This document shows, one piece after another, positions 29,755 through 51,611 of a DNA stretch of 64,000 bases. Every line of letters starts with the position of its first letter. The stretch's first letter is position 1. The stretch is from Bacteroidota bacterium (GTDB lineage: Bacteria; Bacteroidota; Ignavibacteria; UBA10030). Position numbers and translations under genes: made by a program. Below the pieces are notes generated by a model. That model had not been told where the DNA came from. It did not search any database and saw nothing but the letters and a program-made list of their open reading frames with translations. Location of the stretch: contig JALONQ010000001.1 in NCBI GenBank assembly GCA_025454835.1, positions 186,001-250,000 of the forward strand. Reading direction: 5' to 3'.

Positions 29755-29780
29755 CGAAAGCCCGCCGAGGCGGGCTTTCG
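29755..29780 (-). terminator. Terminator of the giant-protein operon
   Basis: A perfect 12-bp palindrome (CGAAAGCCCGCC/GGCGGGCTTTCG) with a 2-base centre, 28 bases beyond the last gene of the operon. The T-run after it is weak, but the stem is very stable. The same AAAGCCCG...CGGGCTTT design is used after the cyclase gene (53809-53836). Confidence 0.75.
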
Positions 29781-29808: not shown

Positions 29809-32313
29809 TTACTCCTTCCAGTAGAGATACTCCTTGATGCTGGCGATCTGCGTCGGATCGGCCCCCCGCCTTCCCCCGAAGACGAACCGGTTCTGTTCGT
29901 TCTTGTATTTCGCGCGCACCCGATAGGCCTGCGTGGACGTTTGCTTCTTGTCGGGCAGGCTTTTCAATGATTGATTCAGGAGGTCGAAGAGCTCATTCTT
30001 CGAGACTTGCCGAGTACCTTGTTGCGCGCCGCGCATGCCGAGCGCCTGTTGGATCTTGTCCAAGCCCAGGACCTCCAATGCCTTCTCCGGCGTTTCGAAC
30101 TTCGACATGGCCACCTGGAACGATTCGACGGCGTCTTCCGTCGAGCCCGATAGATATCGCGCCAGGCCGAAGTTCATGTACACCCCTCCGTCCGCATCGC
30201 TGAGCGCCAAGCTCTTCTGGAACTGCTCCTGCGCGACCGGGAGTTCGTTCCGCAGCATGTGGACGTTGCCCAGCGTGTTCAGCGCCTCCGGCGTATTGAG
30301 ACCCTGGAGCAGCGCGATGGCGGCGTCGTATTCACCGGCCTTCGCTTGGAAGATCGCGGCCTTGTTTTTCCCCGCCGGCGAAGTGTCGGCGGCGAGGTTC
30401 GCCGCCTGCTGGCCTACGTACTGGCTCTGTTGGTATTCGTAGTCCGCCAGATCCTGCACCGCCAGTGTGGCGATCCGGTCGGCAGGCGGAGTGCTGACCG
30501 GCTTTCCCGCCGGGAGGTTCGCCGGAGGGAAGGCTGCCTGGGCTTTTCGTGTATCGATGATCTCAAGCTTCCCCTCGCCACCCGACGCATTGGCGTAGTA
30601 TTCCTCTGCCCCCGTCTTCCACGCCTCCATGAACGGCTTGGTGATCATCGTTGTCTCCAGAGGGACCCAGACGGTGCCCTCGTGGATCACGTAATCCTTC
30701 TCGTTCTGACTCACCATGAACCCGTTCTTTGCCACAAGGTCCGTATCGAACATGATGAAGATGTGGTCGTTCGTCGCCAAGAACTTCGTTCGCACGCCGA
30801 TGTTCTCCAGGCATGCCGCGAGGAGCACGGAAGAATCGTCGCAGTCACCGGTCTTCGACGCCAGCGTTTCGCGCGGGTATTGGATCAGGTCGAGGATGTC
30901 GCCCTCGGCCTGTTTCCAGGGGTCGCTCACATACGCGATTCCATGGGCCCGGATACCGTTCCAGACCGCCATCGCGTTGACCATGTTCCGCGGCAGCTTT
31001 GACTGCAACTTCTCGTTGCCCGAGAGCGATCCGACGACGAACCGAGAAAAGTTGACCACGGCCTCGTCCGCTTCGGTCACGAAGGCGCCAACCGACTCAC
31101 CGCGCCTCCAAGAGATGGTGTTCCGGCTATAGATCGTGACCGGCTTGACGAGGCTTCGCGTTTGGGGCTGGTTGCCGGCGACATACGTCAATTCGACCTT
31201 GACCTGTGCCGCCGTGTTGGCGTTGAGGTCGAACAACTGCTTCGCGTCAAGGGTCGCTGCCAGCTTGAACGACTGCTTGGCGCCCGCATCCACCGAGGGG
31301 ACGATCTGCTCCGAGGGAAGCGACATGTAACCGGGCAGGAGGATCGAGACCTTGACATTCTTCACCGCGGTCTTGCTCGAATTCTCGATGGTGATCGTGG
31401 CGAGCGGATTGTACGCGTAGTAATTGACCTGAGACGGGAAGATATTCTCGACGACGAGGTCGGTGATCTCGAGCGGACTTGTGGCGACCGACGATCCTTT
31501 CGCCCGTTCGACGTTCTCCTTGGTGCTCAGGTCGATCCTGGTCCCCGTCACGCCAATAATGACGAGGTCATCCCGCTGCGCGAGTTCCGACCGAAGATCG
31601 TCGAGCGAACCGACGATCGTCGCCTCGTAGACCGCGCCGTCCTTCTCCATGTATCGGAGGCGAAGTGATTCGATCCTTGTCATATCCGCCGGCAGAGAGC
31701 GCTCGAGGGCGCTCAGGAGCTTCGCGTCGATGCCGAGCAGCGCGATCTGAACGATCCTCGTCGATTTCGATTCGTCGAGGATCTTCAACCGCGTCTTCAC
31801 ATAGAGGTCCGGAGCCATCGCCTCGGCCAGCGCCTGGAACGCCAGCGTTCCTGCGGTCGAACGGCCGCTGGCAGATTTCTTGGAATTCTTCGCGCTGACG
31901 GCGATCAACTCACCGGTGTCGGTGATGATGACCTTGGCATCGCCCTTCGACGCATACTCGATGCTCTTGACCCCGTAGAATTCCTTCTCCCCTTCCATCA
32001 TCGCTGAGGCTTTGCCCACGATGATCAGCTCGGCCCCGTACCGCATGCCGATCTCTTTGGCTCTCGCCGGATTCCCTTCGGCCAGGGCGATATCGCGGAC
32101 TGTGACGTTCTCGAACTGCGACTTGTCGACGAGACGAAACCCCTTCTCGAGGAAGAGTTCCTCGATGCGGGCCGCCACGACACGTCCGTCCGATGGCTGG
32201 CCGTCCAGCCGCTCGTCGAAGATGACCATGATCCGAGGCCAGTCACGCCGGTCCTGGCCGAATGCGACGGCGGCCATGCCCATCACGGCTACGAGCATCA
32301 TCCATCGTTTCAT
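29809..32313 (-). CDS. Exported protein with CsgG/TolB-like N-domain, transglutaminase-like domain and TPR-like C-terminus
   Basis: An 834-residue protein that I cannot assign to a named gene. Signal peptide about 1-19. Residues about 25-135 (PRIMVIFDERLDGQ, FRLVDKSQFENVTV, AELIIVGKASA) resemble the CsgG/FlgT/TolB-like domain of the two small proteins upstream. A beta-rich region with an Ig-like conserved segment near 275-390 follows. Residues about 430-560 look transglutaminase-like: C491 in KTGDCDDSSVLLAACLENIG, H517 in NDHIFIMFD, and D523 or E553 (WVPLETT) as possible third residue. TPR-like repeats are near 660-735 (EALNTLGNVHMLRNELPVAQEQFQKSLAL). A strong AAGGAG lies six bases before the ATG. 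It starts 28 bases after the giant gene, so it is almost certainly co-transcribed. A role in processing or anchoring the giant is inference. Confidence 0.75.
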   Translation of the reverse strand: MKRWMMLVAVMGMAAVAFGQDRRDWPRIMVIFDERLDGQPSDGRVVAARIEELFLEKGFRLVDKSQFENVTVRDIALAEGNPARAKEIGMRYGAELIIVGKASAMMEGEKEFYGVKSIEYASKGDAKVIITDTGELIAVSAKNSKKSASGRSTAGTLAFQALAEAMAPDLYVKTRLKILDESKSTRIVQIALLGIDAKLLSALERSLPADMTRIESLRLRYMEKDGAVYEATIVGSLDDLRSELAQRDDLVIIGVTGTRIDLSTKENVERAKGSSVATSPLEITDLVVENIFPSQVNYYAYNPLATITIENSSKTAVKNVKVSILLPGYMSLPSEQIVPSVDAGAKQSFKLAATLDAKQLFDLNANTAAQVKVELTYVAGNQPQTRSLVKPVTIYSRNTISWRRGESVGAFVTEADEAVVNFSRFVVGSLSGNEKLQSKLPRNMVNAMAVWNGIRAHGIAYVSDPWKQAEGDILDLIQYPRETLASKTGDCDDSSVLLAACLENIGVRTKFLATNDHIFIMFDTDLVAKNGFMVSQNEKDYVIHEGTVWVPLETTMITKPFMEAWKTGAEEYYANASGGEGKLEIIDTRKAQAAFPPANLPAGKPVSTPPADRIATLAVQDLADYEYQQSQYVGQQAANLAADTSPAGKNKAAIFQAKAGEYDAAIALLQGLNTPEALNTLGNVHMLRNELPVAQEQFQKSLALSDADGGVYMNFGLARYLSGSTEDAVESFQVAMSKFETPEKALEVLGLDKIQQALGMRGAQQGTRQVSKNELFDLLNQSLKSLPDKKQTSTQAYRVRAKYKNEQNRFVFGGRRGADPTQIASIKEYLYWKE

Positions 32314-32340
32314 GAGAAACTCCTTGGTCGAAATCGAGTG

Positions 32341-35300
32341 TTATTTGATCAGCGCCATCTTCTGGATTCGGGCAAACAGAGCGCGTCCGGTCTCATCGGA
32401 GACCTGCAAACGGTAGAAGTACGGACCGCTGCTCAGGCCCGCACCGTTGAACGGCACCTCGTAGTAGCCCGCCGACTGTTCACGGTCCACCAGCGTTGCG
32501 ACCTCACGACCCAGCATGTCATAGACACGCAAGGTCACCGACAACCTCTGACCACGCTCCGCCAATGTATACCGGATCATCGTCACCGGGTTGAAGGGGT
32601 TCGGATAGTTGGCGAAGACCTGGAACTCCTTCGGATAGAGGTCCACTCCCGCGCTTTGCTCGACAATGAAGTCCTTGCGGCCGACCACCACGCGGAAATT
32701 GCGCCTCCCATTCATTGAATTGACCATGATCTCCGAGGTTGTGCGCAGGTCGTAGGCCATTTTCTGATCGAGATCGACCAGGAACGCCTCGAACGACGGG
32801 TCAGGCAGCGCGACCGGGCCGCCCGTGGAGACCCTGATCATCGCCCCTTCATCCCCCGTCACGACCTTCATCTCCCAGACGCCGCCCCGCACGCTCAACG
32901 GACGGATATCTTGCATCATGGCCTCGCCTTCGTTCTCGAAGAAGAGAGCCACGTTCCTCGTACCAACGAACGGCGGCTGGAAGTGATCGAAGCGATCGGG
33001 GCCGTCTTCGGCGCCGGCAGCCATGCCGATGGCGTCGCCGAGGTCCAGCATATCATTGTCGGTGCGGTACGCCCCGAACGGGATGAACCAGCTCTGTCCG
33101 ACACCCTCTCCGCTCGCCACCGCTTCCGCCACGCTCAGGCGGCCAACCGGAAGGTCGGGATCCGCGAGGCCCGGCTGTGAGCCGATCGTCCGGAACAACA
33201 GCCGGGTCGGCGCGCTCACACGGACGGCAAGACCTTCCCACTGTTTGAGGACAAGCGGATTCATGTCCCACCCGCTCGTCGTCCCACTACCCGTGAACGC
33301 CGCACGCTGCTGGATCGTGGCACCACTCGCCACCTGGAGACTGTCGATGGCGATGTCACGGAGCAAAGGATTGCCTATCAGGTTCCAGCCCAAGCGGAGG
33401 TCGATCCCGACGTCATTCATGTCCTGCGCGTTCACGACGCTGCCGGAGCCAACCGTGATCCGTTTGTTGTTCGAACGGACGATCAGGAAGAACGCAGAAC
33501 CGGGCGTCAAAGCCTGCTGGTCCTTGAATGCCTCGTAGTCCTCTTTCACTCCGCCGTTGAAACGCTGCAATCGCCAGTTGGCGTAGGCCACTCCGTCCTG
33601 TGCATGAGGACCGAGGTTCGTCGAAAGCGGAAAGATCTGGCTTGGACGCTTGTCGGCCAGGTTGTATGGCACCGAGAACAACCGGTAGGCCTTCACGAGG
33701 TCGGTGCCCGGGGCCAACGCGGCCACCGAGACGAGCGGTGTCGGCTGCGGCGGCGGCGCATCGATCGACTTCACACGGATCGAATAGACCCTCGTCGCCA
33801 CACGGTTGTCGGCGGAGTCGATCGCAATCAACCGGTAGTCGACGCCGACCGGTCCACCGTTCAGCACGAACGTCGCGGCCGGGATCTGCGTCGAGCCTCC
33901 GTTCATCGACAGCGCCGTGTAGCTTGGGTCGGTCACGCGGCGGTACTCCAACGTGAACGACTTGATCCCCGACGCGCCTCCGAGCTGGTCCGTCGCCTGC
34001 GCCGTGATGGTCACCGGGCCGGAGGCAACGCCCGACTGGATGGTCACCTCCGGAACCGATGCCGTATCGTGCGCGATCACGGGGTCCGCCGCGTCGTACT
34101 TGTAGGAGGCGACGTACCGCCGGTTCAGGTCCTTGTTGCCCGCGCCGTCTTCAAAATAGAAGTACACGAAGACCACGCCGTGCTGTACCGGGGTTGGAAC
34201 CGTGAACGACTGGTTCGTCAATGCCGTCCGCGTTCCCGGGTTGGAAACGCTCGGGACCATGCCCGGAGAGATCCACACGTGCGTCACGCCAGAGACGTCC
34301 GTCACCTGCGGAGACCACGACAACGTGATCGGAAGAGAACGTGTCCACGACGAGGGATTTGCCGAGGCCGTCACCGCAGCGTTATACGGCGGCGTGTTGT
34401 CCGTGGCGAATCCGCTCAAGGTGTCGACGAGCCCGCCCGAGTATCGCGGGTCGTTGCTCTGAACGACGAGCGTCGCCTGTCGCGCACCTCGGGAATTCGG
34501 CTGGAACCGCACCGTGATCTGTCGGGTCGCGCCAGGATTGAGCGAGAATGATCCGGTACCTGTCGTGATGGCGAATGAAGCGGCGTCGGTGCCAGACAGC
34601 GTCACCGAATTCACGTTCAACGACACGCCGCCCGAATTCGACAACGTGATGATCTGGTCTGCCGTGGCGAGGCCGGCCTCGACTGACCCGAAGTCCACCG
34701 GCGATGGCGAGAGCGATGCCAGCGGAACCGCAGGCGCTGTACGGAGACTGCGAATCGCCGACCACGGACCGCTACCTCCCGCGTTCTTGGCGCGAACGCG
34801 CCAGTAGTACGTCGTCTCGAACGCCAGGGAGGTCGGCGAAATTGTCAACGCCGTCAACGTCGAGTCTTCGTGGCTCACGCTGGTGAAGGTGTTCCCGGTC
34901 GCGATCTGGAAGTGATAATGCGCAGCACCGGAGACCGCATTCCAGGCATACGATGTCGTGGGGAGCACTCCCTGCGCGTTGTCCGCCGGAGAAGCGAGCG
35001 TCGGCGCCGACGTCGGAGCCGCGACCACGGTCCGGAAGGACCTCACCGTTGAGTAGCCCCCGCCCCCCGCTTCATTCTCCGCCTGGACGCGCCAGTAGTA
35101 GGTGGTATTATGCGCGAGACTTGGCATCAACTGCGACGTGCCACTCAGACTGGCGAACTCCTGCACCGCACTCACAAAGGTGGGATCCGTCGATACTTGC
35201 AGACGGTACGATGACGCCCGAAGCGCCGACGACCAGGCGAGTGAAACCGTTGTCCACACGTCCTGCGCACCGTCGGCTGGACTGACCAGCGTGGGCACGG

Positions 35301-38300
35301 CCGGCAGCGCCATGATCGTTCGGAAGCGCCATACCGGCGAAAAAGCCGTCGTCCCGCCGCTGTTGGATGCGCTGATGCGCCAGAAGTAGTCCGTATCGTT
35401 GGCCAGCGGACCGACGTTCACCGTGGTGTCGAGGTGGGCCGCCAGGTTGGTGACCGTTGTCGAGAAGTTTGAATTGGCCGAGACCTGCACACGATAGCTG
35501 GCTGCGCGCGGCACTGATCGCCAGATGAGTTGCGCATTGACGGCGATGCTCCTCGCCGCGCTGTCGGGCGATACGAGCCCGGGCACCTCGGGCAGCTGCA
35601 CCACCGTGATAAACCCTTGCGTGGGCGAATATGGTCCGGATCCTCCGGCATTGCGCGCCCGGACGCGCCAATAGTACGTGGTCCCATACGACAGGGTCAC
35701 CTGTCGCGTCGTCGTCGTGATCATTGAATCGACGAAAAACAGGGGTGTCACGGTTGGCTGCGTAGAGACTTCAAGCCGATAGTGCTCGGCGCGCGCAACG
35801 GCGTTCCACGAAAAGGTGACGGTGACCGGCTGGTCGCCGGCACCGGAAGCGGGTGCCACCAGCGATGGAGCATCCGGGGTCGCGACGATGGTTCGGAAGC
35901 GCCATGGAGGCGTGTACGAGGTCGTCCCTCCCGCGTTCGAAGCATTGACCCTCCAGAAATACTCAGTGTCGTTCTGGAGCGGTCCCAGGGCGTAGACAGT
36001 ATCGGTCAACCCGGCCGGACTCGTGACCGTCGTCGAGAAGTTGGCGACTGTTGAGACCTGCAGCTGATAGCTGGCCGCTCGGGGCGCCCCGCGCCACCTC
36101 AATTCCACGTTCACTGGGGTCCCTGTGACCGCGCTGTCGGGAGCGATCAACTCTGGCAGACCCGGCTGTTGCACGATGGTCGTGAAGGATTGCGTCGGCG
36201 AATACGCTCCGCTGCCGCCGGCATTCCGCGCACTGACCCGCCAGTAGTATTCAGTAGCGTACGACAGGGCCACTTGACGCGTCGTCGTGGTGATCAACGA
36301 GTCGACGAAGACGAGCGGCGAGAATGACAGCTGGGTCGAGACCTCGAGACGATACTGCGCAGCACGCGCCACCGCATTCCAAGCGAAGTTCACCGTCACC
36401 GGCTGATTTCCCGCCCCTGACGAAGGAGTGACCAGCGTCGGTGCATCCGGGACCGCCATGATGGTGCGGAACCGCCATGTCGGGGTGTACGACGTCGTTC
36501 CGCCCGCGTTCGACGCATTGACCCTCCAGAAGTACTCCGTGTCGTTCTGGAGCGGGCCCAGGGCGTAGACGGTATCGGTCAACCCGGGTTGATTGGTGAC
36601 CGTCGTCGAGAAGTTGGCGACCGTCGATACCTGCAGTTGATAACTGGTCGCTCGGGGCGCCCCGCGCCACCTCAATTCCACGTTCACCGGAATCCCCGTG
36701 ACCGCGCTGTCAGGAGCGATCAGCGCCGGAACACCCGGCTGTTGAACGACGGTCGTGAAGGATTGCGTCGGCGAAAACGCGCCGCTGCCGCCGGCGTTCC
36801 GCGCACTGACGCGCCAGTAGTATTCGGTCGCGTACGACAGGGCCACTTGACGCGTCGTCGTGGTAATCAATGAGTCGACGAAGGTGAGCGGCGAGAACGA
36901 CGGCTGGGTCGAGACCTCGAGACGATACTGCGCAGCACGCGCCGCCGCATTCCACGCAAAGTTCACCGTCACCGGCTGATTTCCGGCACCTGATGCAGGA
37001 GTGACCAGCGTCGGGGCATCCGGGACCGCCACGATCGTCCGGAAGCGCCAGATCGGTGAGTTCGCGGTCGTGCCGCCCGCGTTCGATGCATTGAGGCGCC
37101 AGAAGTACTCCGTGTCGTTCTGGAGCGGTCCAACCTGCAACGCGGTGTCCGTCACGCCGGCGACATTCGCCACGGTCGTCGAGAAGTTCGAAATGAGCGA
37201 GACCTGCACCTGGTAGCTCGCCGCCCTCGGTGCGCTCCTCCACTGTAACTGGACCGTGGTCGGCTGTCCGGTCGATCCGCTGTCGGGCGCCACCTGCACG
37301 GGGACCGTGGGCGCTTGAATGATCGTCACGAACTTCCAGGTCGACGAATACGACCCCGGCCCGCCGGCACTCTGGGCACGGACGCGCCAGAAGTATTCGG
37401 TCAGGTAGTTCAGCGTGACGTTTCGAGACGTACCCGTGATCGTGGAATCGAGGAAGAAGAACGTCGAGAAATCGCCCGATGTCGACACCTCAAGACGATA
37501 CGACGTTGCGCCACTGACCGGGCTCCACGAGAAGGTCATCCCGATCGGCTGATTTCCCGTCCCGTCCATCGGAGCGGCCAGCGACGGCGTATTCGGAGCC
37601 GGCACAATGGTCCGGAATTTCCACGGCGCGGAGAAGGCCGAAGTGCCCCCCGCATTCGAAGCCGACACCCGCCAATAGTAGGTCGTGTCGTTCATCAGCG
37701 GGCCGACCGTCTGCACCGTATCCGTCAGGCCGGACTGATCGTACATGATGACGCCAAAATTCTGGAACAGCGAGACCTGCAGTCGGTATGAAGCCGCACG
37801 GACCGCGCTCCGCCACCTCAACGTGGCCAGCGTCGGTACATTGGTCAACGTCGTGTCGGGCGAGACGTGCACCGGCACGGCCGGCGGTTCGAGGATCGTC
37901 CGGAATGTGCGGACGGCGGAGTACGCGCTGGCGCCTCCCGCGTTCTGAGACCGGACACGCCAGTAGAATCGTGTATTGAAGGCCAGCGGGCCGACGCCTT
38001 TCGAGGTCGCCGTCATCGTTGAGTCGACATGCGCCAGCGACGTGAAGGACGCATCCGTCGAGATCTCCAACCGATACGTCGACGCCCGCAGCGCCGCCGT
38101 CCAGGACAACGACAACGTCACCGGCTGATCGACGACAGAGTCGGCCGGAGCGTCGAGCGTGGGCACCTCCGGCAGCGCCACAACGGTCCGGAAAGTCCAC
38201 GTCGGCGAGTAAACGCTCGCGCCGCCGGTGTTCATCGAACGGACGCGCCAGAAGTACGAGGCATCATTCGAGAGGCCGCCCAGCGCTCGGGCGGTATCGG

Positions 38301-44300: not shown

Positions 44301-47300
44301 CGGTCCACGCCAATGGTGCGCGGCTTCCGCGCAACGCCAGGGTGTCGATGGCTGGATTGAAGAGTCCCGACCGGATCGCCGAGCGCATGTCGACGGACAT
44401 GGTGACATTCGCCGGGCGCGTATCGCGGACGAAGATCGTTCCGAACTCGCCAACGAGATGCACCAGCTCGGGAAGTTCCGGCTGCGCCGCGTACAGGAAT
44501 CCTTGGTAACCTGAGAACGATGGTTGCCAGGTCGCCCCCTGGTCCGTCGAGACGAACACCGTTCCTTCCAGCGAGACGAGATACCCGACACCTGACGACC
44601 GGTGGATGGCGCCTCGTCGAATGCCCGTGGTCGCGGGCAGTGGAAGCGTGATGGGATTCCAGGAGAAGCCGCCGTCGACCGTGCGGTAGATGGTGTTTTC
44701 CGCCGGCGATCCGACCACCCCGACCATGTCGTTGAAGAAGACGATCGCCTCCTTGCGACCGGTCGTGCCGACAGATCGCGTCTGCCACGTCAGTCCAGCG
44801 TCTGCGGAGATGGAGACAGACCCGGATGTGTTACCGGTGACGTACTTCGTGGGGCTCACCATCTGGATGGCCCGAACCGATTGCCCGGGAATCGGGGCCA
44901 GCGACGTCCACGAATCGCCCGCATCGGTCGTTCTCATGACGATGTTCGCGCCGGCCACAAGCCCTTCAAGATCGTTGAGGAATGAGAGGTCGAGCCATGA
45001 CGGTCCAGTGGTCGGGTACGGTGTGGCAGGTTGATACCAGCTCTGACCGTAATCGACAGTCCTTCGAATCGTGTTGCCCGAGCCGATGACCACGGCAGCG
45101 CCGTACCAAGGCACGTGAACACCATAGAGCGTTTGCGTCGTGAACGCCGCGACGGAATCCCATGAACGGCCGCCATCGAAGGTGCGTCGGATGTTCCCTC
45201 CTGCCCCGGACGCGAAGCCGAAGCCAGATTCACCGGCGAAGTCGACGCTCAGCAGTGCGGTCTGCGTGCCCGAGGGTAGAAGCTCCCAACCATTTGCCGG
45301 GGGCGGGGTGGTGAACTGAAAGAGTGAGTCGGTCGTCGCCGAACCGTATTCATTCTGCGCGAACGGGCGATAGTAGTAGACGGTCGAAGGTGACAAGCCG
45401 GCGATCGGGGCCCGAGGCACGACGGCGTTCACGCCGGTGATTGGGGCACCTTCGAAGGCAACCGTTGATCCCAGTGCGGGAGTCGTGCCGTACGCGATGC
45501 CACCCGTGGTGCTACCGGCATACGGCAGCACTGACGCGCGCAGCGTGATCCGATCGCTGAACAGTCCCTGAAACCCGACAGCGAAGACACGCGGGGCAGC
45601 AACCGGAGCGCGTCGGAGCGTTAAGCGATACTTGGCACCGGGAGATGCCCCCAATGTCCCCCGGTTGTCGATCACCCGAATGTGATACGTCCCGGTGGCC
45701 TGAAGTACGCGTACGAGCCGCGATTCATAGCCTTGGTTTGGGATCGTGGCGCTCCAGTCTCGGAAGGTCAGCGCGCCGAACGGGTCGCGGAGCGCGAAGG
45801 AAGGCGAGAACGTTCCGAACAGATCGGAGGTGGTCGGAGTGAACGTGGAGATCTCGATCGTGTCGCCGGCCGCACCTTCGAACCGATACCAATCGTACTC
45901 GCGCATCGGGTCGAGGGCGGCTTCGACTTCAGCATTGTACTGTATCGTGGAAGCCGTCGACAGCGTATCGTTGGGTTCTGCCTCGAACTGAAGCCCGCGG
46001 CGCAAGACGGTGCCCCGATCGCCGACGATCATGTCCGTCGTCCCGTTGCTCGAGACGTCTACCAGGTAGAGCACCGTCCCACTCTTCTCCGAGGTCGCGG
46101 TCAGCCAGCCGTCTGTCGTGCGATAGACTCGACCATCGTAACCGACGGCCAGTCCCTGTTCGGTGTCGGACATGCCGACGGACACGATGTTATAGACATC
46201 CGTACTTCGAGGCAGCCATGTCGCACCTCCGTCAGTCGTACTATAGATCCCAGCCCAGGCCGCAGCGTATCCTGTCGTAGAATTCGCAAAGTCGATCGAG
46301 TAGATCGGATGCGGTATGTTTGCGACTCCGGTCCACGTTGCACCACCATCCGTGGTGCGGTAGAACCAGCGGTCGTCGCCGGCCGCAACGGCGACGCCCG
46401 GCGAGACGAAGTCGACGGACACGAGTGCGTATGGGCCCGGGACCGTCGTGGTAGACCAACTTGCGCCGTAGTCCGTCGAAGCGATCACCGCACCGCCATA
46501 TCCAACGCCGATGATGTACTGTCCCGTTGGATCCACAGCGATATCGCGAAGATCTGCGTAGGCACCGGTGTAAGTCGAGGACCACGTCGTACCAGTGTCG
46601 TTCGTCTTCACCACCGGATAGTAGCCGTAGCCTGCGCTGAAACCTACGCCGGAACTCGAGAAGTCAATGGCACGGCTGTAGTGAGGGTATGTGTAGAGCG
46701 GACTGACGTCCTGCCAGGTGGTGCCGCCATTTGTCGTTCGAAAGAGGTACGACCCCGCCGCGAAGGCGACCCGATCATCGAGGACCTTGGATCCAACGAG
46801 ATAGTGTCCTCCCCCCGGAGTCAACTCCTGACGCGTCCACTTCCCGCTCCGCTCAGGGGTCGAGAACGTGAAATCCGGTCCGTACGAAGTACCCAACGAT
46901 CCCGTCGCCCTGAAACGGGCGTGATACGTCGTCGCCGGCTGAAGGCCGGGGATCTGGGTCGAGGGAGAATACGCCCATGGGGCGTGGAAGATGTCAACGA
47001 AGTGGACCTGTCCGTAGGCCGTCGACGTGCCGTATTCCACTTCCACCGAGACGTTGAGTTCGCCGGGATAGAGGAACTGATAGACGTACGCGAGGTTTTC
47101 GCGCATGCCGTCAGCGCCACGATATCCCAACCGGGTGAGCATCGGGGCGAACCTTCGCACGAGGATGGAGTAGCTACCCGATGTGTCTTGTGGCGCCAAC
47201 ACGCGCGTGCGGAGCGCCCGTTCCTTCGCCATGCTTTCGAGTTGTTCCTCCTTCGAGCCCTTAATGAACGGTCGCTTCGAAGGATAGTTGGCGGCGTAGT

Positions 47301-49485
47301 TGTAGAAGTGGAGCACACGTAGCGAATATGTGTCAGGATTCAGAACCAGGGACATGAATTGGTCCTGGTCTGCCATGAGGTACCAGGAACTGCCATGGAC
47401 CATGTTGCCGCTGCTGTTGTACAGCTCAAACTTGTATCGGACATTCGAACCCGCTCCCAGCGCCCCGACAAACTGAACCGTATCCTCCGTCGTCAGCGTG
47501 AACTGGTAGTAGTCGACGTCCGCCTGATAGTCGATCGCTCCCTCGATCTTCGTCCCCAACGTGATGAGGTTTGGCGTAAAGGCGGTCCCATTCGGCTCGA
47601 CCTCTGTCAACGTCGGCGATGCGTCGACCGTCGTAGGATCGCTGACGATCTGTTTCGCCCTGGCCGCTGAAGCGCGCAATTGGTCAATGTTTGGCGCCCC
47701 AAGGTAGACCACCGTCAGATGCATCGTGTCGCCGACACCGGCGCTGTACGGTCCGACCGAGATCTGCCCGCGCACGTCGGACGGGTCCGTCACGAACGGC
47801 GTGTAGGTTTGCAGATTCTCGCGATTGCGCACATAGAGATTGTCGTCGGCGTTCCAGACCGCCATGCCCGACGGCCGCCGGTTGTCTCCCACGACCTGGA
47901 TGCCGTACGCTGCTCCGTTGGTGGCTCCCCCTGATTCGACCGCATACACCAATCCCAACGCTGTGTCGTAGGCCGCTAGGTTGTATGTCGGCACGCCAAC
48001 GTCAAAGTCCGCCGTGACCTGAAGAAAGATGTCGTCGAGCGGAGCACCCGATTCGTTGACGAACTGATAGTCGACGACGGTGTACTGATGATCCGGTATG
48101 CCCAACTTAATGTAGGAGGTTTGGATCACTCGCAGACCGATACGGGTGGCCGCGGCCTCCCACGCATCAGTGAAGGAGGTCCGAAGTGCGGAATACCCGA
48201 TCGCCATGCTCGGGACCGCGGTGAAGCCATCGGCCGGCGCGAAGCTGTTGGCGGCCGTGTACAGCCCGCCCGCGAACCTGCCGTCGTTCCGGTCGACAAC
48301 GCTGACGTCGGCCGTGTAGATCCCGTTCTTTCCGTTGACGACGATCCCCTTGCCATATCGCCCAAACGTGCCGAGCTTTCCTCTGTTGGTCAGGTCGAAT
48401 CTCGTATCGTTCTCGATCGATCGCACGAGTTCCGCATACACGAAGATCGTGTCACGGAGGCTTCCGGCGGCGTTCACGGCATCGAGAATCACCATCTGAT
48501 TTCCGAACTGGAAATCCTGCGGAGTCCACCGGAGCGAGTCTCCGTCGAGGACCATGCCGACGGGTCCAGAGACGAGCGAATGCACCGGTGCCGGCCATCC
48601 GTTCGATACCACGGCGGCAGCGAAGGGCACGTCTGTCACGGCCGACAACAACGTGGCGCCGATGTTCGTCGCCGCGAACTGAACCAACGACCCCGCCGGG
48701 AATGAGACGAGCCGGGCATTCTGTACCTGCAGATCATTGCTGTTCGCCGTCAGATCCGGCGTCCAGATCGTAGTGCCCGACGGCAGCGTCGAATCGAACT
48801 GCCAGCAGCCAGCCAAGCCGCTCTCGTTCCCCGTGAGCGCAGAACTCATAGCGCCCGAGATCTCCGCGCCGCTTCGCGTAACATTCCACAAGCGTACTTC
48901 GTCGATCAGGCCGCGGAAGTTGTCGGCCGATGTCCCGCCCACGTAGAACCCGGTGCTGCCCGCCCCCACCGCGAAACTCGCCGGAACGCTCGCCGCCTCC
49001 GTGCCGTTGACGTACAATCGAGCCGTGGTCCCGTCATAGCTGCCGGCCACATGCACCCACGCCCCCATCGGCATCGTGCTGGCATCGACGACGGCCACTT
49101 CGTTGCCGCCGCCAATCGGGGTCACGCCGTCGGAGATCGCAAACATCAGGTGAGTCGTGAGACTCACGGAATCCGTCCTCACCAAGAGCCCATAGGTCTG
49201 GAACGGATCGACGACGAAGCCGTTGTTGGCCGGGCGAGCCACGATCGTGTATTGCCCTCCGGGAACGGGTGGCGCGAACATGTAAACCCACGCCTCAACC
49301 GTCAGCGAAGTGCCGCCGACGGCCAACGCTGAGGCCGTGCGCGGGAGCAGGACGGTGTTCACGTCGGTCACGCGCACGCGGTCTGGCGTTCCATTGAAGG
49401 AGATCGAGCCAGTGTTCTGGGCAAGGGTAGGTAGGCCCCCGATGAACAACGTCAGGAGCGTGAGAACGGAGCGGCGGAGAGTCAT
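32341..49485 (-). CDS. Giant secreted mosaic protein with T9SS C-terminal sorting domain (5,714 residues)
   Basis: Signal peptide 1-22. Domains in order, approximate residues: LamG 23-260; Ig/cadherin-like 265-350; unassigned beta-rich region 355-615; PPC 626-730; Fn3-like 780-878; BNR/YCF48-type propeller 880-1135 (repeated TTDGGATW); PPC 1166-1280; Fn3-like 1300-1395; second BNR propeller 1399-1690; CBM20-like sandwich 1694-1800; LamG 1819-2022; Fn3; Big_5-like; seven-bladed FG-GAP propeller 2229-2570 (seven DxNxDGxxD loops); Fn3; LamG 2669-2875; Fn3; NHL propeller 2969-3283; Fn3; 16 tandem Fn3 domains 3385-4915; ASH-like domain 4922-5032; beta-rich region; T9SS type A domain 5615-5714 (NYPNPFNPVT). 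Only one Cys (C227) was seen. The start ATG (49483-49485) has AAGG nine bases upstream; an ATG three codons earlier is possible. Surface display with adhesin or matrix function is inferred from domain types. Confidence 0.88.
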   Translation of the reverse strand: MTLRRSVLTLLTLFIGGLPTLAQNTGSISFNGTPDRVRVTDVNTVLLPRTASALAVGGTSLTVEAWVYMFAPPVPGGQYTIVARPANNGFVVDPFQTYGLLVRTDSVSLTTHLMFAISDGVTPIGGGNEVAVVDASTMPMGAWVHVAGSYDGTTARLYVNGTEAASVPASFAVGAGSTGFYVGGTSADNFRGLIDEVRLWNVTRSGAEISGAMSSALTGNESGLAGCWQFDSTLPSGTTIWTPDLTANSNDLQVQNARLVSFPAGSLVQFAATNIGATLLSAVTDVPFAAAVVSNGWPAPVHSLVSGPVGMVLDGDSLRWTPQDFQFGNQMVILDAVNAAGSLRDTIFVYAELVRSIENDTRFDLTNRGKLGTFGRYGKGIVVNGKNGIYTADVSVVDRNDGRFAGGLYTAANSFAPADGFTAVPSMAIGYSALRTSFTDAWEAAATRIGLRVIQTSYIKLGIPDHQYTVVDYQFVNESGAPLDDIFLQVTADFDVGVPTYNLAAYDTALGLVYAVESGGATNGAAYGIQVVGDNRRPSGMAVWNADDNLYVRNRENLQTYTPFVTDPSDVRGQISVGPYSAGVGDTMHLTVVYLGAPNIDQLRASAARAKQIVSDPTTVDASPTLTEVEPNGTAFTPNLITLGTKIEGAIDYQADVDYYQFTLTTEDTVQFVGALGAGSNVRYKFELYNSSGNMVHGSSWYLMADQDQFMSLVLNPDTYSLRVLHFYNYAANYPSKRPFIKGSKEEQLESMAKERALRTRVLAPQDTSGSYSILVRRFAPMLTRLGYRGADGMRENLAYVYQFLYPGELNVSVEVEYGTSTAYGQVHFVDIFHAPWAYSPSTQIPGLQPATTYHARFRATGSLGTSYGPDFTFSTPERSGKWTRQELTPGGGHYLVGSKVLDDRVAFAAGSYLFRTTNGGTTWQDVSPLYTYPHYSRAIDFSSSGVGFSAGYGYYPVVKTNDTGTTWSSTYTGAYADLRDIAVDPTGQYIIGVGYGGAVIASTDYGASWSTTTVPGPYALVSVDFVSPGVAVAAGDDRWFYRTTDGGATWTGVANIPHPIYSIDFANSTTGYAAAWAGIYSTTDGGATWLPRSTDVYNIVSVGMSDTEQGLAVGYDGRVYRTTDGWLTATSEKSGTVLYLVDVSSNGTTDMIVGDRGTVLRRGLQFEAEPNDTLSTASTIQYNAEVEAALDPMREYDWYRFEGAAGDTIEISTFTPTTSDLFGTFSPSFALRDPFGALTFRDWSATIPNQGYESRLVRVLQATGTYHIRVIDNRGTLGASPGAKYRLTLRRAPVAAPRVFAVGFQGLFSDRITLRASVLPYAGSTTGGIAYGTTPALGSTVAFEGAPITGVNAVVPRAPIAGLSPSTVYYYRPFAQNEYGSATTDSLFQFTTPPPANGWELLPSGTQTALLSVDFAGESGFGFASGAGGNIRRTFDGGRSWDSVAAFTTQTLYGVHVPWYGAAVVIGSGNTIRRTVDYGQSWYQPATPYPTTGPSWLDLSFLNDLEGLVAGANIVMRTTDAGDSWTSLAPIPGQSVRAIQMVSPTKYVTGNTSGSVSISADAGLTWQTRSVGTTGRKEAIVFFNDMVGVVGSPAENTIYRTVDGGFSWNPITLPLPATTGIRRGAIHRSSGVGYLVSLEGTVFVSTDQGATWQPSFSGYQGFLYAAQPELPELVHLVGEFGTIFVRDTRPANVTMSVDMRSAIRSGLFNPAIDTLALRGSRAPLAWTGFNQILTDLWSGVTDSIYQASFSTPDPGLLEYKFVIRHRGYDLWERAMVTNRTAELMRGSSGYWHVFDDRAEQFVQLTGQYDRDVNTLGLYHLDEDTLSNVVWGVSGPLAVDQSPQSNHGSYNGPVMVDGRHGRARYFPGQPGIGMTLERGILVPLGPSYSFTIELWTKLDQYPSSNGAAVYSGGIYDAFIGLSTTGRLRAGIRNGGGTMVTDSSSRPVELDRWVHLAMQYDATGKILRGFIDGQKVMESALGVGFTTGATFSQAFIGGGPGLGVYRGTIDEVRISRRLVSPSEFYLPLPPSFASAQSGNGRVRIVWTSSLAGLPVMRYRVYRGSDSTAMAPIDSVSNSITEYTDTTAVNGALYYYRIAPVDVSGFEGRPTTAMRGTPLPLPALLSSSPTRNAQFASSSNVVRLSFNTDLDTTSLATSAVRVSGRLSGRRHVAQLLYDTELRYVDVVLDSAFIRGDEVEVVVLRSVRNINGDSLIAPAIFRFRIGTTGGTGVMTAVSANTGTGGPALLAAGDIDRDGDADIVTANASSNTLTVFRNDGRGALSVANTLPQSGGPLGIVLSDLNNDGWTDLAVTNSSAGSVTRWLNTGGGNFSSPLSITVGTAPHGIAAGDIDGDGDPDLVVANSGSSSFTVLTNNGAGNFTTLTYGPVGTQPTAVALADLNRDDQLDIVVSATSDGVVRHYRNAGGVFSLFHAISLGGGAYGLAVADMNGDGINDLITGLSVTTNNLRIDRLNAQGTVAGTSSFTVGTDIRGVVVGDFNGDGLTDAAVTDHATNTVRVLGNNGSGGYTELSSTPVGTNPWGLVGGDLDADGDLDLVAGNQNSALVSVLRNNVDNSPPAQVLEPLISETSGRVILQWTANPEPDVTRYVILRATPPLGLTRQDSVAAGTTSYVDMSVTDSTAYQYVIRAVDLAGNEGPNSFSRWATPHARQAGEYASNDTSTVLLLPFAERSGVIYNIDATPNGQSGVAVGGHTSVPGKFGLARSLSGGQYLRFQGRDYYAPTGPFTIEAWVNPAAVGAGTIVRKDTAVSSGYALVLSPTGLPTFQVMQPAASVQGSTPIAAGQWTHLAGVFTGSTIELYVNGLLAGSTAVAGPLSIGTQFLAIGAMPTLPATSYYTGSVDEVRLSKVARSPLEFNVQLTPRSLAASVAGTTINLSWQNGGGASPLARYRIYRGADSTSMVAIDSATATTYSNTDLDLATQYFYRVTAVDVTGTESPRSYAASAMTSSAPQQATVSPFAGSSAGNFDASGELAQFDLPEGAAFDALGNLYVADAGNGSLRKITPLRVVTTLATAMGTVAGVAVDSVGNVFVASSTHHKIYRISHTGAKSTYAGSGNVGMADGDSTEAEFNAPAGIAFDRSGSLYVADRGNNVIRRISPLRFVELVTGSATGAAGFANGTGTTARFRSPSGLALEPAGSFVLADAGTNSIRRLTVGTGGSVSVSMISGLDTTAGSTDGLASVARFNGPTGVAVDQAGNIFVADRGNQTIRRISPASVVSTIAGSALASGWVDDLGTTARFSAPAGLAVDPTSTLLVADRNNHRIRRVVTNYVPSVFTADATTVTATSATLVGFGNPNGLSTTYYFEYGTSNAYGTQSSPVSLGLGALFLQRSLAVSSLSANTTYHYRLVASNESGTTFGTNRTFTTSLPAPGTPTLTSPDSAATGVTIQPTLAWTAGLNAQTYRLQVSFASNFPSLIAQDSAISTLSATLSAPLLHDTVYYWRVRSENVTGASAYTPTRFFRTIVDTPDVPTLAGPANSATDRPVSLSLSWNASARATTYRLQVSASNTFGVLSYDDSTLNGTSATVSGLANLTTYYWRVNAKNAGGVSSFSTIRQFTTIIAVPSDPGLTLPADSAAQQPTTLTLTWTAAARASTYHLQVSTSESFSPLVVDDSTLVATSRVVSSLTNATTYHWRVRAKNVGGTTAYAPARRFTTIIGAPTTPTLAGPDSGAINQPLSVTAIWLPAARAERYHVQLSTTSSFASTLVNDSTVTDTARALGGLSNDASYFWRVRSMNTGGASVYSPTWTFRTVVALPEVPTLDAPADSVVDQPVTLSLSWTAALRASTYRLEISTDASFTSLAHVDSTMTATSKGVGPLAFNTRFYWRVRSQNAGGASAYSAVRTFRTILEPPAVPVHVSPDTTLTNVPTLATLRWRSAVRAASYRLQVSLFQNFGVIMYDQSGLTDTVQTVGPLMNDTTYYWRVSASNAGGTSAFSAPWKFRTIVPAPNTPSLAAPMDGTGNQPIGMTFSWSPVSGATSYRLEVSTSGDFSTFFFLDSTITGTSRNVTLNYLTEYFWRVRAQSAGGPGSYSSTWKFVTIIQAPTVPVQVAPDSGSTGQPTTVQLQWRSAPRAASYQVQVSLISNFSTTVANVAGVTDTALQVGPLQNDTEYFWRLNASNAGGTTANSPIWRFRTIVAVPDAPTLVTPASGAGNQPVTVNFAWNAAARAAQYRLEVSTQPSFSPLTFVDSLITTTTRQVALSYATEYYWRVSARNAGGSGAFSPTQSFTTVVQQPGVPALIAPDSAVTGIPVNVELRWRGAPRATSYQLQVSTVANFSTTVTNQPGLTDTVYALGPLQNDTEYFWRVNASNAGGTTSYTPTWRFRTIMAVPDAPTLVTPSSGAGNQPVTVNFAWNAVARAAQYRLEVSTQLSFSPLVFVDSLITTTTRQVALSYATEYYWRVSARNAGGSGAYSPTQSFTTIVQQPGLPELIAPDSAVTGTPVNVELRWRGAPRAASYQLQVSTVANFSTTVTSPAGLTDTVYALGPLQNDTEYFWRVNASNAGGTTSYTPPWRFRTIVATPDAPSLVAPASGAGDQPVTVTFSWNAVARAEHYRLEVSTQPTVTPLFFVDSMITTTTRQVTLSYGTTYYWRVRARNAGGSGPYSPTQGFITVVQLPEVPGLVSPDSAARSIAVNAQLIWRSVPRAASYRVQVSANSNFSTTVTNLAAHLDTTVNVGPLANDTDYFWRISASNSGGTTAFSPVWRFRTIMALPAVPTLVSPADGAQDVWTTVSLAWSSALRASSYRLQVSTDPTFVSAVQEFASLSGTSQLMPSLAHNTTYYWRVQAENEAGGGGYSTVRSFRTVVAAPTSAPTLASPADNAQGVLPTTSYAWNAVSGAAHYHFQIATGNTFTSVSHEDSTLTALTISPTSLAFETTYYWRVRAKNAGGSGPWSAIRSLRTAPAVPLASLSPSPVDFGSVEAGLATADQIITLSNSGGVSLNVNSVTLSGTDAASFAITTGTGSFSLNPGATRQITVRFQPNSRGARQATLVVQSNDPRYSGGLVDTLSGFATDNTPPYNAAVTASANPSSWTRSLPITLSWSPQVTDVSGVTHVWISPGMVPSVSNPGTRTALTNQSFTVPTPVQHGVVFVYFYFEDGAGNKDLNRRYVASYKYDAADPVIAHDTASVPEVTIQSGVASGPVTITAQATDQLGGASGIKSFTLEYRRVTDPSYTALSMNGGSTQIPAATFVLNGGPVGVDYRLIAIDSADNRVATRVYSIRVKSIDAPPPQPTPLVSVAALAPGTDLVKAYRLFSVPYNLADKRPSQIFPLSTNLGPHAQDGVAYANWRLQRFNGGVKEDYEAFKDQQALTPGSAFFLIVRSNNKRITVGSGSVVNAQDMNDVGIDLRLGWNLIGNPLLRDIAIDSLQVASGATIQQRAAFTGSGTTSGWDMNPLVLKQWEGLAVRVSAPTRLLFRTIGSQPGLADPDLPVGRLSVAEAVASGEGVGQSWFIPFGAYRTDNDMLDLGDAIGMAAGAEDGPDRFDHFQPPFVGTRNVALFFENEGEAMMQDIRPLSVRGGVWEMKVVTGDEGAMIRVSTGGPVALPDPSFEAFLVDLDQKMAYDLRTTSEIMVNSMNGRRNFRVVVGRKDFIVEQSAGVDLYPKEFQVFANYPNPFNPVTMIRYTLAERGQRLSVTLRVYDMLGREVATLVDREQSAGYYEVPFNGAGLSSGPYFYRLQVSDETGRALFARIQKMALIK
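35314..37032 (-). repeat. Three direct 573-bp repeats (Fn3 B-A pairs) inside the giant gene
   Basis: Fn3 domains 9-14 of the array form three copies of a two-domain unit of 95+96 residues. Unit borders fall exactly 573 bases apart: 37032, 36459 and 35886. Domains 9 and 11 differ at about 7 of 95 residues and domains 10 and 12 at about 8 of 96, and long stretches are identical at the DNA level. This is a recent in-frame tandem duplication. Confidence 0.85.
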
Positions 49486-49556
49486 GGCGAACATCCTTGG
49501 TGTCAACGCTGATCGTAGGCGATGCTGTGAGACGGGGCTCACGATGGCCTCGAGCG

Positions 49557-50246
49557 CTACGGGAGATCCGGTGACGGCGGGAGGGCCTCCACACTCGTGC
49601 CCCCCTCTTCTTTCTTCGGCTTCAGCAAGATCGCGGCGGCCGCGCCGCCGCCCAATACAACAGCACCCGCGGCATACCACAGCCACCCGCCCCCTCCGCC
49701 GACGGCATCAAACTGCTTGCCCACCATCTCCCCCGCCATCTGTCTGGCCATGTTCGGGATGATCTCAGACAGAAGGTCTTCGATATCCCCCCGATGCTGG
49801 CGCGACTTGTTGGAGATGATCTGAGCTGTGGCGATATCGATGACTTGAATGTTGACGTTGAAGAGCGAGCCGACCTTGCCGATCGTGCCGGCGAACATCC
49901 GCTCCACCTTCAGTATCTTCCCGGCTTCAACGATGCACTCGACCTGCGAACAGGCCTCGGACTGTTGGAACCCTTGTTCCTGAAGGATCTGACGGATGCG
50001 TTGGCGGTCGACAACGGTGAATTCTCCGACGGAGACGATCTCTGTCTGGAAGGCATCGGACAAGGTTGCCGCCTCTTCCTTCGAGAGGCCACCCCTCGCG
50101 TCGAAATCGAGTACGGCGACGTTGAGTTTCTTCGGCGGCGTGGCTTGCGGGCGCTGGGTTCGTTGCTGCGCGAAGGTTCCCAGTGTGAGGATACAGGTCA
50201 GGTAGGCCACAATGGCGGGGCGGGCCGCCTGAATGGTGCGGGACAT
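49557..50246 (-). CDS. CsgG-like protein with C-terminal membrane helix
   Basis: A 229-residue protein. Signal peptide about 1-26 (ending GTFAQQ), then a CsgG/TolB-like alpha/beta domain about 40-185: NVAVLDFDARGGLSKEEAATLSD, FTVVDRQRIRQILQEQGF and MFAGTIGKVGSLFNVNIQVID. Two cysteines in EACSQVEC could bond to each other. A glycine-rich linker and a hydrophobic helix (WYAAGAVVLGGGAAAAILL) follow, then a short polar tail. CsgG is the outer-membrane curli secretion channel; this protein lacks the full channel insertion segments, so it is better called CsgG-like. The ATG at 50244-50246 was chosen; a GTG three codons upstream has GGAG eight bases before it and is an alternative. It lies 71 bases before the giant gene. 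Confidence 0.75.
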   Translation of the reverse strand: MSRTIQAARPAIVAYLTCILTLGTFAQQRTQRPQATPPKKLNVAVLDFDARGGLSKEEAATLSDAFQTEIVSVGEFTVVDRQRIRQILQEQGFQQSEACSQVECIVEAGKILKVERMFAGTIGKVGSLFNVNIQVIDIATAQIISNKSRQHRGDIEDLLSEIIPNMARQMAGEMVGKQFDAVGGGGGWLWYAAGAVVLGGGAAAAILLKPKKEEGGTSVEALPPSPDLP

Positions 50247-50310
50247 GAGAGTCACAGGGAGGACTCCTCTGCTCGTGGGGTGAGGTCGATGGAAAGAACG
50301 GAACGAACGG

Positions 50311-50814
50311 CTACTTCTTCTGTACGCCGTCCACGGCGGCAACGATCTCGCTGACGATCTCCGGAAGGAACTCGTCCATGATGTCCTCGAGATCGTCGTC
50401 GTATGTACGCGAGATCGAGAGGTCGATGCCGGAGGTTTCGACATCGGTGATCTTGACGCTGAAAATGTAGTTCTCGCCCAGCTTCCCGAGGGAGCCGGTG
50501 ACGAATTTCCGGACTGCCAGGACGCTGGCCGCCTGGCCGAGTCCGGCGTTCGGATTCTGGGCGGCTTGGAAACTCTGTTCCTGAAGGACCGCCTGGATCT
50601 GCTTCCGGTCGACGACATTGAACCGGGCGGTCTGGGTGAGGAGTGAGGCGAGCGCGTCGCCGACCGATTGCGCTTCCGGAGCTTGGACGCCGGCCCGGGC
50701 TTCGAAGTCCATGATCGAAATATTGATCTTTGGTTTCGCGATCTGCGGTTTGGAGCCGCCGCAGCCGATCAGGAGGAGAACGAGGGGAAGAAGTGAGTAG
50801 CAACGTGTGCGCAT
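50311..50814 (-). CDS. CsgG-like lipoprotein
   Basis: A 167-residue protein with a lipoprotein signal (LLLIGC, lipid-modified C18). The mature domain (about 30-165) parallels the next gene: NISIMDFEARAGVQAPEAQSVGD, FNVVDRKQIQAVLQEQSFQ and VTGSLGKLGENYIFSVKITDVETS. The end is acidic (DDDLEDIMDEFLPEIVSEIV). It is a paralogue of the downstream CsgG-like protein, without the Cys pair and the C-terminal helix. An outer-membrane location is expected from the signal. It starts 26 bases after the TlpA-like gene and ends 64 bases before its paralogue. Confidence 0.78.
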   Translation of the reverse strand: MRTRCYSLLPLVLLLIGCGGSKPQIAKPKINISIMDFEARAGVQAPEAQSVGDALASLLTQTARFNVVDRKQIQAVLQEQSFQAAQNPNAGLGQAASVLAVRKFVTGSLGKLGENYIFSVKITDVETSGIDLSISRTYDDDLEDIMDEFLPEIVSEIVAAVDGVQKK

Positions 50815-50840
50815 CGACGCTCCCGAATGTGTGGGATGCT

Positions 50841-51440
50841 TCAGTTCATGCGTTGTGCCGTCAGCAACTCATTGAGCATATTTCTGATCTCAAGATGAAA
50901 ATTCTCATGGAAACCTCTGTTGACCTTCCTCACAATTCCGTCCTGGTCGACGACGACGATCATCGGCAATCCGCGGACCGTGTAGTTCCTCGCAAATCGA
51001 CCCGAGGCGTCGATGAGGCACTGAAGGCTGTATCCCCGGGCTTTGTAGACCGACCTGACCGTGTCCTCCGTCACATCGGCCATTTCCTGCGTATTGACGA
51101 GAAAGAACTTCACGGGCTTTCCGGAAAACTCCTTCTCAAGCTCCGTCAGCAGCGGGATCTCGACCTTGCACGGCTGACACCACGTCGCCCAGAAACTGAG
51201 TACGACGATGTGCGGCTGCGGGATCTTGGACTCGCGCCGACGGGGCTTGCCGACGTAGTCCCTCAGGAAGGTGGGATTGTCCGTCAGAAGGTCGCGCATG
51301 ACGAAGACCGGGGCCGGTTCCCCAGGGTGGAGCGTATCACCCTTGGCAGCGATGGCAAGGGCATGCGGCTCCTTTGCGCTCATCGCCATGAAGCCCAACG
51401 AGACGAGCAGAAGGAGCGAGACGGGAGTGGAACGATACAC
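50841..51440 (-). CDS. TlpA/ResA-like periplasmic thiol-disulfide oxidoreductase
   Basis: A 199-residue thioredoxin-fold protein. Signal peptide about 1-22. The active site is WATWCQPC near 83-90, followed by IPLLTELEKEFSGKPVKFFLVN and GLPMIVVVDQDG, where the cis-Pro is preceded by Leu. The start codon is GTG (51438-51440); an upstream -7-like CATATTTG is present, but without the usual TTG 20 bases before it. It is the first gene of the giant-protein operon. As the giant has essentially no cysteines, its target may be the Cys pair of the CsgG-like protein or an unrelated protein. Confidence 0.85.
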   Translation of the reverse strand: MYRSTPVSLLLLVSLGFMAMSAKEPHALAIAAKGDTLHPGEPAPVFVMRDLLTDNPTFLRDYVGKPRRRESKIPQPHIVVLSFWATWCQPCKVEIPLLTELEKEFSGKPVKFFLVNTQEMADVTEDTVRSVYKARGYSLQCLIDASGRFARNYTVRGLPMIVVVDQDGIVRKVNRGFHENFHLEIRNMLNELLTAQRMN

Positions 51441-51611
51441 GATGGTCTCAGAGAAGAAGTGAGATGGAATAGCGAAAAAACCTACACAAATATGGACCCG
51501 TTGTCAACCAAGGGTTGAAGGGAATGGCACAAGTCCTTACGCAATTGTAACGATTGCATCTGGCAATGGTCGCGCGTACATTTGCATGCCCTCAACCCCT
51601 CCTATCGACCC
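51441..51611. promoter_or_regulatory. Divergent regulatory region between the giant-protein operon and the cyclase
   Basis: 171 bases between divergent starts. It is A+T-richer than its surroundings. The plus-strand promoter is clear (51553-51584). For the minus strand only a partial -7 (CATATTTG near 51485) is present. An imperfect inverted pair TTGTCAACC/GGGTTGAAG at 51510-51528 could be an operator, but this is weak. Confidence 0.45.
51553..51584 (+). promoter_or_regulatory. Bacteroidetes-type promoter of the adenylate cyclase gene
   Basis: ATTG (51553-51556), 20 bases, then TACATTTG (51577-51584), an exact TAnnTTTG. Predicted transcription starts near 51591, about 21 bases before the ATG. 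Confidence 0.75.

Follow-up and report, generated by a model that had tools for sequence, protein, structure and literature searches.

A conserved gene cluster of Ignavibacteria-type Bacteroidota links T9SS surface proteins and TolB-N-type periplasmic proteins to a CHASE2 cyclase and may serve envelope signalling

We analyzed a stretch of 64,000 nucleotides (the window) from a Bacteroidota bacterium (contig JALONQ010000001.1, positions 186,001 to 250,000; source assembly GCA_025454835.1 with 3.2 Mb in 47 contigs and an estimated completeness of 100%). Here, five minus-strand genes encode a TlpA-like thioredoxin, two CsgG-like proteins (CsgG1, CsgG2), a giant protein of the type IX secretion system (T9SS) and a protein with a transglutaminase-like domain and tetratricopeptide repeats (TG-TPR protein). 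A CHASE2 cyclase is encoded divergently upstream (Table 1). The original prediction for this locus had proposed that the five genes form a functional unit, and this proposal is strongly supported: two families share the gene neighbourhood, and the CsgG-like/T9SS pair has a paralogous counterpart. We consider the chances about even that the cluster constitutes a conserved cell-envelope signalling unit, which would relay information from the surface to the cytoplasm, and not an exporter.

The strongest partner of the cluster is the divergent CHASE2 cyclase, which lay outside the region considered in the original prediction and was missed there. Its sequence scored 137.6 bits with the CHASE2 profile (cut-off 26.3) and 79 bits with that of the class III catalytic domain (cut-off 21.9). 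The catalytic residues are intact: the motifs FTD, DKYIGD and GDPVNLASR are kept and with them both metal Asp, the Lys/Asp substrate pair, the Asn and the Arg. When we surveyed 98 genomes of the order, the TG-TPR protein was found in 28, the cyclase in 26 and both in 24. All six exceptions (four TG-only, two cyclase-only) are located at contig ends. In two TG-only genomes (G085, G095), truncated cyclases directly follow the TG-TPR gene (L057, L071), and in the other two (G092, G094) the TG-TPR hits end within 335 bases of the contig end on the downstream side. In the cyclase-only genomes (G013, G023), the contig breaks off after TlpA and CsgG genes next to the cyclase. The adjacency of the two genes was also consistent within each family. 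In f1, the family of the window's genome, the cyclase is divergent and upstream in all seven readable loci, the window included. In f5, a second family with full-length TG-TPR orthologues as judged from synteny and sequence, it is co-directional and directly downstream of the TG-TPR gene (18/18 readable loci), so that it occupies opposite sides of the cluster in the two families. This partner moves the likely role of the cluster from export or assembly towards envelope signalling. As a separate observation, a C-terminal PPxxWNGVF motif follows the catalytic domain in the cluster CHASE2 cyclases and in one paralogue encoded at another place in the window's genome (G000:C37:96423-98114).

The relatives in which the cluster was found are represented by metagenome assemblies of Bacteroidota, under the titles Ignavibacteria, Ignavibacteriales, Ignavibacteriae or Bacteroidetes. 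The f1 clusters contain, in this order, TlpA, CsgG1 (not seen in G004), CsgG2, the T9SS protein and TG-TPR, with the cyclase divergent from TlpA. The f5 clusters lie on a single strand and run from a CsgG-TPR lipoprotein through the T9SS protein, an outer-membrane-like protein of ~390 residues, a small CsgG-like protein and TG-TPR to the cyclase. TlpA is conserved in the f1 clusters only, and Pfam and NCBIfam scans of the outer-membrane-like protein yielded no match. In 14 of 16 readable f5 loci, the T9SS gene directly precedes the outer-membrane-like gene. Complete syntenic T9SS genes encode 1,158-1,685 residues in f1 and 1,135-1,623 residues in f5; one contig-cut f1 gene encodes at least 2,330, and the 5,714 residues of the window's protein are the extreme. 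The conserved traits are a region of ~550 residues preceding the C-terminal sorting domain (CTD), referred to below as the pre-CTD region, and the neighbouring genes, not the giant size. Within f1 the cluster is patchy, since a genome of the same genus (G001) carries neither TG-TPR nor the cluster cyclase. In G007 (L031:13866-15682), two extra genes were observed between the large T9SS gene and TG-TPR, one for 374 residues of unassigned kind and one for 231 residues with a T9SS CTD.

The giant gene is coding throughout because every 500-codon block shows a codon-position bias, with a GC content of 0.72-0.84 at position 3 as compared with 0.48-0.61 at positions 1 and 2. Both the length and the sorting domain assigned in the original prediction were confirmed. 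The protein contains LamG, BNR/YCF48/sortilin-like, FG-GAP, NHL, FN3-type and HYDIN-like Ig domains, the FN3-type units (at least 14) being regularly spaced. With its sorting domain and a translocon in the genome, it has the sequence features of T9SS type A cargo and its export by this route is predicted. The genome holds 75 TIGR04183 matches, most of them over the cut-off, and encodes SprA on contig C15 (SprA_N PF14349, 6.1e-54), so that a CsgG channel is not needed for export of the giant. Although a thioredoxin-like gene opens the operon, only one cysteine (position 227) occurs in the giant, which makes TlpA an unlikely oxidase for this protein.

When we compared the last 666 residues of the giant with its own genome, only one protein matched at near full length, a T9SS protein of 3,083 residues on contig C16. 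The other 45 matches fall in or near the CTD. The upstream neighbour of the 3,083-residue protein is a CsgG2 paralogue of 72-75% identity (L080:3702-13689), and a similar CsgG2/T9SS pair with a protein of 4,103 residues was found in G009 (L098). Across the order, 12 of the 98 genomes contain the pre-CTD region (E<=1e-20). In f1, CsgG2 is found upstream of every gene that carries the region and whose contig extends far enough (G000 twice, G004, G009, G021, G026, G028), the G009 cases being one on C10 and one split over contigs C1/C11. The T9SS proteins of the f5 clusters share 26-28% identity with the second half of the region.

The two CsgG-like proteins are ~31% identical to each other and scored 30.4 and 36.2 bits with PF03783 (cut-off 20.8), the matches covering ~100 of 210 profile positions. 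CsgG2 combines a plausible signal peptide, a hydrophobic helix near the C-terminus (judged by eye or hydropathy), an LPPSPDLP tail and a Cys102/Cys107 pair. The structure model, which covers CsgG2 of the two proteins, has a mean pLDDT of 78.7 with most of the core above 90. The best structural match was the TolB N-terminal domain (TolB-N; Z 14.8, root mean square deviation (rmsd) 2.3 over 125), followed by FlgT (Z 13.4), PelC (Z 13.0) and LpoB (Z 12.1, rmsd 2.4 over 110 residues), whereas CsgG gave Z values of 8.5-11.5 and rmsd values of 3.5-6.0. In the model core (residues 42-180), strands of ~10 residues are joined by short turns, as compared with CsgG chains of ~225 residues, and the pore-forming transmembrane beta-hairpins of CsgG are absent. 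A TolB-N/FlgT/LpoB-type fold without such hairpins makes a curli-type exporter unlikely, and on the basis of the model we rejected CsgG2 as a pore. The family assignment of the original prediction thus holds for the Pfam match over about half of the profile, but its proposal that the CsgG-like proteins aid export of the giant is not supported: the model of CsgG2 shows a compact domain of the TolB-N type, and export is explained by the T9SS, including SprA. LpoB-like folding applies to CsgG2, yet the score for TolB-N is higher. A complete LpoB/penicillin-binding protein system was also considered and rejected, since Pfam gives CHASE2 and a cyclase, not a class A penicillin-binding protein, for the conserved divergent neighbour.

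The C-terminal tail is a further trait of the gene that precedes the T9SS gene. It is of the LPxxPxLP type in f1 and of the PLPxPPxPP type in f5, and in a survey of 1.2 Mb of fetched loci such tails were almost confined to this gene. An LPxxPx[LF]P or PLPxPPxPP tail is kept next to T9SS genes of the pre-CTD type regardless of whether the periplasmic domain is TolB-N, TPR, or TPR plus CsgG lipoprotein. If our interpretation is correct, a 'CsgG' annotation beside T9SS genes can mean a TolB-N-type periplasmic protein and not a curli exporter, and the pre-CTD region together with a tailed neighbour would be a genomic marker for dedicated pairs of T9SS proteins and partners.

In the TG-TPR protein, a TolB-N/FlgT-like N-terminal part is followed by a beta domain of the CARDB type, a transglutaminase-like domain, TPRs and a conserved C-terminal motif with residues that are invariant across orthologues. 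Its model has a mean pLDDT of 76, and TPR matches filled the list of structural matches so that the middle domains were barely tested. Transglutaminase profiles remained below the Pfam cut-offs (PF01841 13.4 vs 23 bits, DUF553 15.2 vs 20.5 bits). However, C491, H517 and E553 are invariant in the TG-TPR orthologues and aligned in shorter homologues, and these conserved Cys-His-Glu residues support the predicted transglutaminase-like nature of the domain. The original designation therefore stands on residues, not on profile scores. Residues 301-592, the CARDB-transglutaminase stretch, matched the NCBIfam anti-phage ProA model (1e-17, 62.9 bits vs a cut-off of 1500).

The shorter CARDB-transglutaminase homologues (~675 residues) are widespread in the order and share the catalytic Cys, His and Glu with TG-TPR. 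The N-terminal part of the one protein scanned with NCBIfam resembles PorV/PorQ, with a score below the cut-off (1.3e-6). In 7/7 loci read (L086-L090, L093, L094), a CHASE2-like protein is encoded at a distance of ~2 kb from them; in L086, Pfam identified it as a CHASE2-sigma54 activator, and genes for a TPR protein, a DUF4292 protein and an M23 peptidase come before it. As far as we searched the literature, this sister operon is undescribed. CHASE2 receptors thus have CARDB-transglutaminase partners in both operon types, and the outputs differ between the two.

From these observations, the following sequence of events may be envisaged. The T9SS would display a surface protein with a freely remodelled outer part (BNR, LamG, FN3, FG-GAP; ~1,100 to 5,714 residues) and, as its constant part, the ~550-residue region adjoining the sorting domain. 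TolB-N-fold proteins that are periplasmic or tethered to the membrane (CsgG1, CsgG2, the N-terminal part of TG-TPR) and the transglutaminase-like domain might contact this protein or its attachment site and act on it or watch it, perhaps in response to a ligand. The periplasmic CHASE2 domain would read the resulting state, and the cyclase would change the level of a cytoplasmic cyclic nucleotide, probably cAMP. The targets of TlpA would be the Cys pair of CsgG2 or the active-site Cys of TG-TPR, not the single-Cys giant. However, the CsgG2 Cys pair is kept in paralogues without an adjacent TlpA, and this weakens a strict link between the two.

We favour this relay because several observations point in the same direction: the tight linkage with the CHASE2 cyclase, the second pairing of CHASE2 with transglutaminase proteins, a CsgG2 fold that is not that of a pore, and two precedents (PMC4439547, PMC7712824). 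Several observations weigh against it. The T9SS gene is missing from its position in 2/16 readable f5 clusters and CsgG2/T9SS pairs stand alone without TG-TPR or cyclase (L080, L098), so that the T9SS protein may be accessory. The co-occurrence of TG-TPR and cyclase gave Fisher p-values of 1e-16 overall and 4e-6 in f1 alone, but these overstate the evidence because of kinship among the genomes. Moreover, the conserved linkage may reflect co-regulation and not contact. The missing f5 genes also bear on the original prediction, according to which widespread partners without a giant gene would make the functional unit doubtful. As to size, partners without a giant are the rule, since this size is peculiar to the window's genome among the syntenic genes; as to a T9SS protein of any size, the two f5 clusters are the cases in which partners occur without it.

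The main rival explanation is an assembly or anchoring unit, in which CsgG2 would serve T9SS proteins of the pre-CTD type as their dedicated chaperone or docking factor, TG-TPR would crosslink, trim or anchor the export product and the cyclase would merely regulate the operon. It stays plausible because CsgG2 tracks the pre-CTD region even in the stand-alone pairs, and both the invariant catalytic residues of TG-TPR and the T9SS machinery in the genome are in line with it. On the other hand, TG-TPR is more closely coupled to the cyclase, which was found in every case where the contig is long enough, than to the T9SS gene, and ~70 other T9SS CTD genes in the window's genome have no CsgG neighbour. 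On balance we regard this explanation as rather unlikely.

We consider it less probable still that the TolB-N-type proteins, TG-TPR and the CHASE2 cyclase form the core of an envelope-stress sensor, which would monitor the state of peptidoglycan or outer membrane like wall-contacting Tol, Lpo or FlgT-type proteins, the T9SS gene being a hitchhiker and its surface protein only a co-regulated output. The top fold matches of CsgG2 (TolB, FlgT, LpoB), the clusters without a T9SS gene and the M23 peptidase and DUF4292/LolB-like protein of the sister CHASE2 operon argue for such a sensor. However, the T9SS gene is located between conserved genes in both families (the 14 f5 loci mentioned above, every readable locus of f1), and the occurrence of its pre-CTD region follows that of CsgG2. 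An anti-phage module of CARDB-transglutaminase protein and cyclase is hardly credible: the ProA match and a resemblance of the cyclase domain to Pycsar cyclases, which any class III cyclase may show, speak for it, but the match is far below its cut-off and covers one domain pair, PADLOC gave no hit for TG-TPR, both CsgG-like proteins and TlpA, and a Pycsar effector is absent among the operon genes.

If the relay exists, it would connect second-messenger signalling with the surface display of large T9SS proteins and provide a candidate input for CHASE2, a widespread sensor domain with largely unknown inputs. In a wider sense, and with more doubt than conviction, we suggest an undescribed class of outside-in signalling in Ignavibacteria-type Bacteroidota. 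Here, TolB-N-fold and CARDB-transglutaminase proteins would read a T9SS protein in which the ectodomain is interchangeable and the pre-CTD region constant, and would gate a CHASE2 receptor, whose cytoplasmic output would differ between sister versions (cyclase or sigma54 activator).

Table 1. Coordinates of the cluster, its neighbours and related loci. Positions without prefix refer to the window, those with the prefix L to fetched loci; aa, amino acids.
Feature	Position	Strand	Details
TlpA/ResA-like periplasmic thioredoxin	50841..51440	-	199 aa; GTG start; WCQPC motif; operon gene 1; Pfam AhpC-TSA 3.5e-15, Redoxin 7.8e-15
CsgG1 lipoprotein, CsgG/TolB-N-like domain	50311..50814	-	167 aa; lipobox LLIGC; PF03783 5.2e-09, profile positions 5-104 of 210
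CsgG2, TolB-N-like domain	49557..50255	-	232 aa; PF03783 3.1e-07; structure model, PDB matches, alignments
Giant T9SS surface protein (predicted)	32341..49485	-	5,714 aa; ATG start
Conserved ~550-aa pre-CTD region of the giant	32707..34341	-	genome-wide and order-wide distribution, alignment
T9SS type A C-terminal sorting domain of the giant	32392..32607	-	TIGR04183, 27.4 bits vs cut-off 23
TG-TPR protein	29809..32313	-	834 aa; profiles, model, alignments
GC-rich strong hairpin without T-tract, 3' of last gene	29755..29780	-	z -3.4
CHASE2 sensor with class III nucleotide cyclase	51582..53786	+	734 aa as listed; Pfam CHASE2 7.1e-40, Guanylate_cyc 4.3e-22
Intergenic region between divergent TlpA and cyclase genes	51441..51581	.	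141 bp
Sister operon	L086:310-11534; also L087-L090, L093, L094		TPR protein, DUF4292 (LolB-like) protein, M23 peptidase, CHASE2-sigma54 activator, PorV-like/CARDB/transglutaminase protein
C-terminal tail, examples	49557-49600 (CsgG2 C-terminus); L097:4708-5388; L104:7636-8286; L038:9581-10918		

As the original prediction had it, all five open reading frames are present on the minus strand with short gaps (26, 55, 71 and 27 bp, counted from TlpA), and a Shine-Dalgarno-like sequence precedes most of the starts. CsgG2 may begin at GTG 50255 or ATG 50246, and for the cyclase an ATG at 51612 is a likelier start than the listed position. The strong terminator proposed after the TG-TPR gene is a stable hairpin (-33.3 kcal/mol over an 83-nt stretch), but it lacks a T-tract and was not called by the terminator scan, so that factor-independent termination is not established. 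Signal peptides, claimed for every product, were judged by eye to be plausible in all five. In 3/3 apparent signal-peptidase-I proteins (starts 32313, 49485 and 50255), the probable cleavage site includes or adjoins a Gln (FGQ, LAQ, FAQ), in agreement with the Q-rule described for Bacteroidetes (PMC5837995), and Q20 of TG-TPR is nearly invariant in the orthologue alignment.

In the part of the literature covered on CHASE2 with CsgG, TolB or transglutaminase and on T9SS with Kapabacteria/Ignavibacteria, we found no description of the cluster, and comparison with known systems yielded partial likenesses. CsgG2 shares its core fold with the CsgG curli exporter, and its Pfam CsgG match covers the N-terminal half; it differs in its closer relation to TolB-N, FlgT, PelC and LpoB and in its surroundings, since csgA, csgB, csgE and csgF were absent among the operon proteins and direct neighbours scanned. 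SprB-type adhesins are very large, repeat-rich T9SS surface proteins and resemble the giant in this respect, but they have a type B sorting domain and other neighbours. PorA of Porphyromonas gingivalis is a CTD protein for which signal transfer from the surface to PorXY-SigP has been proposed (PMC7712824). This small protein with a FimH-like domain acts via a two-component system and a sigma factor, in contrast to the cluster with its CHASE2 cyclase. MtxA of magnetotactic bacteria, a signal-peptide Ig-like/TPR protein for which a role in periplasmic signalling has been suggested, is encoded just before a CHASE2-adenylate cyclase gene (PMC4439547). The likeness to our cluster lies in a signal-peptide protein that is encoded together with a CHASE2 cyclase, but MtxA belongs to a different phylum and no T9SS protein, CsgG-like or transglutaminase-like gene has been described for that system. 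The sister operon has the same three residues in a CARDB-transglutaminase protein encoded near a CHASE2-domain protein, and differs in its sigma54-activator output, an N-terminal part that is PorV-like instead of TolB-N-like, and other partner genes.

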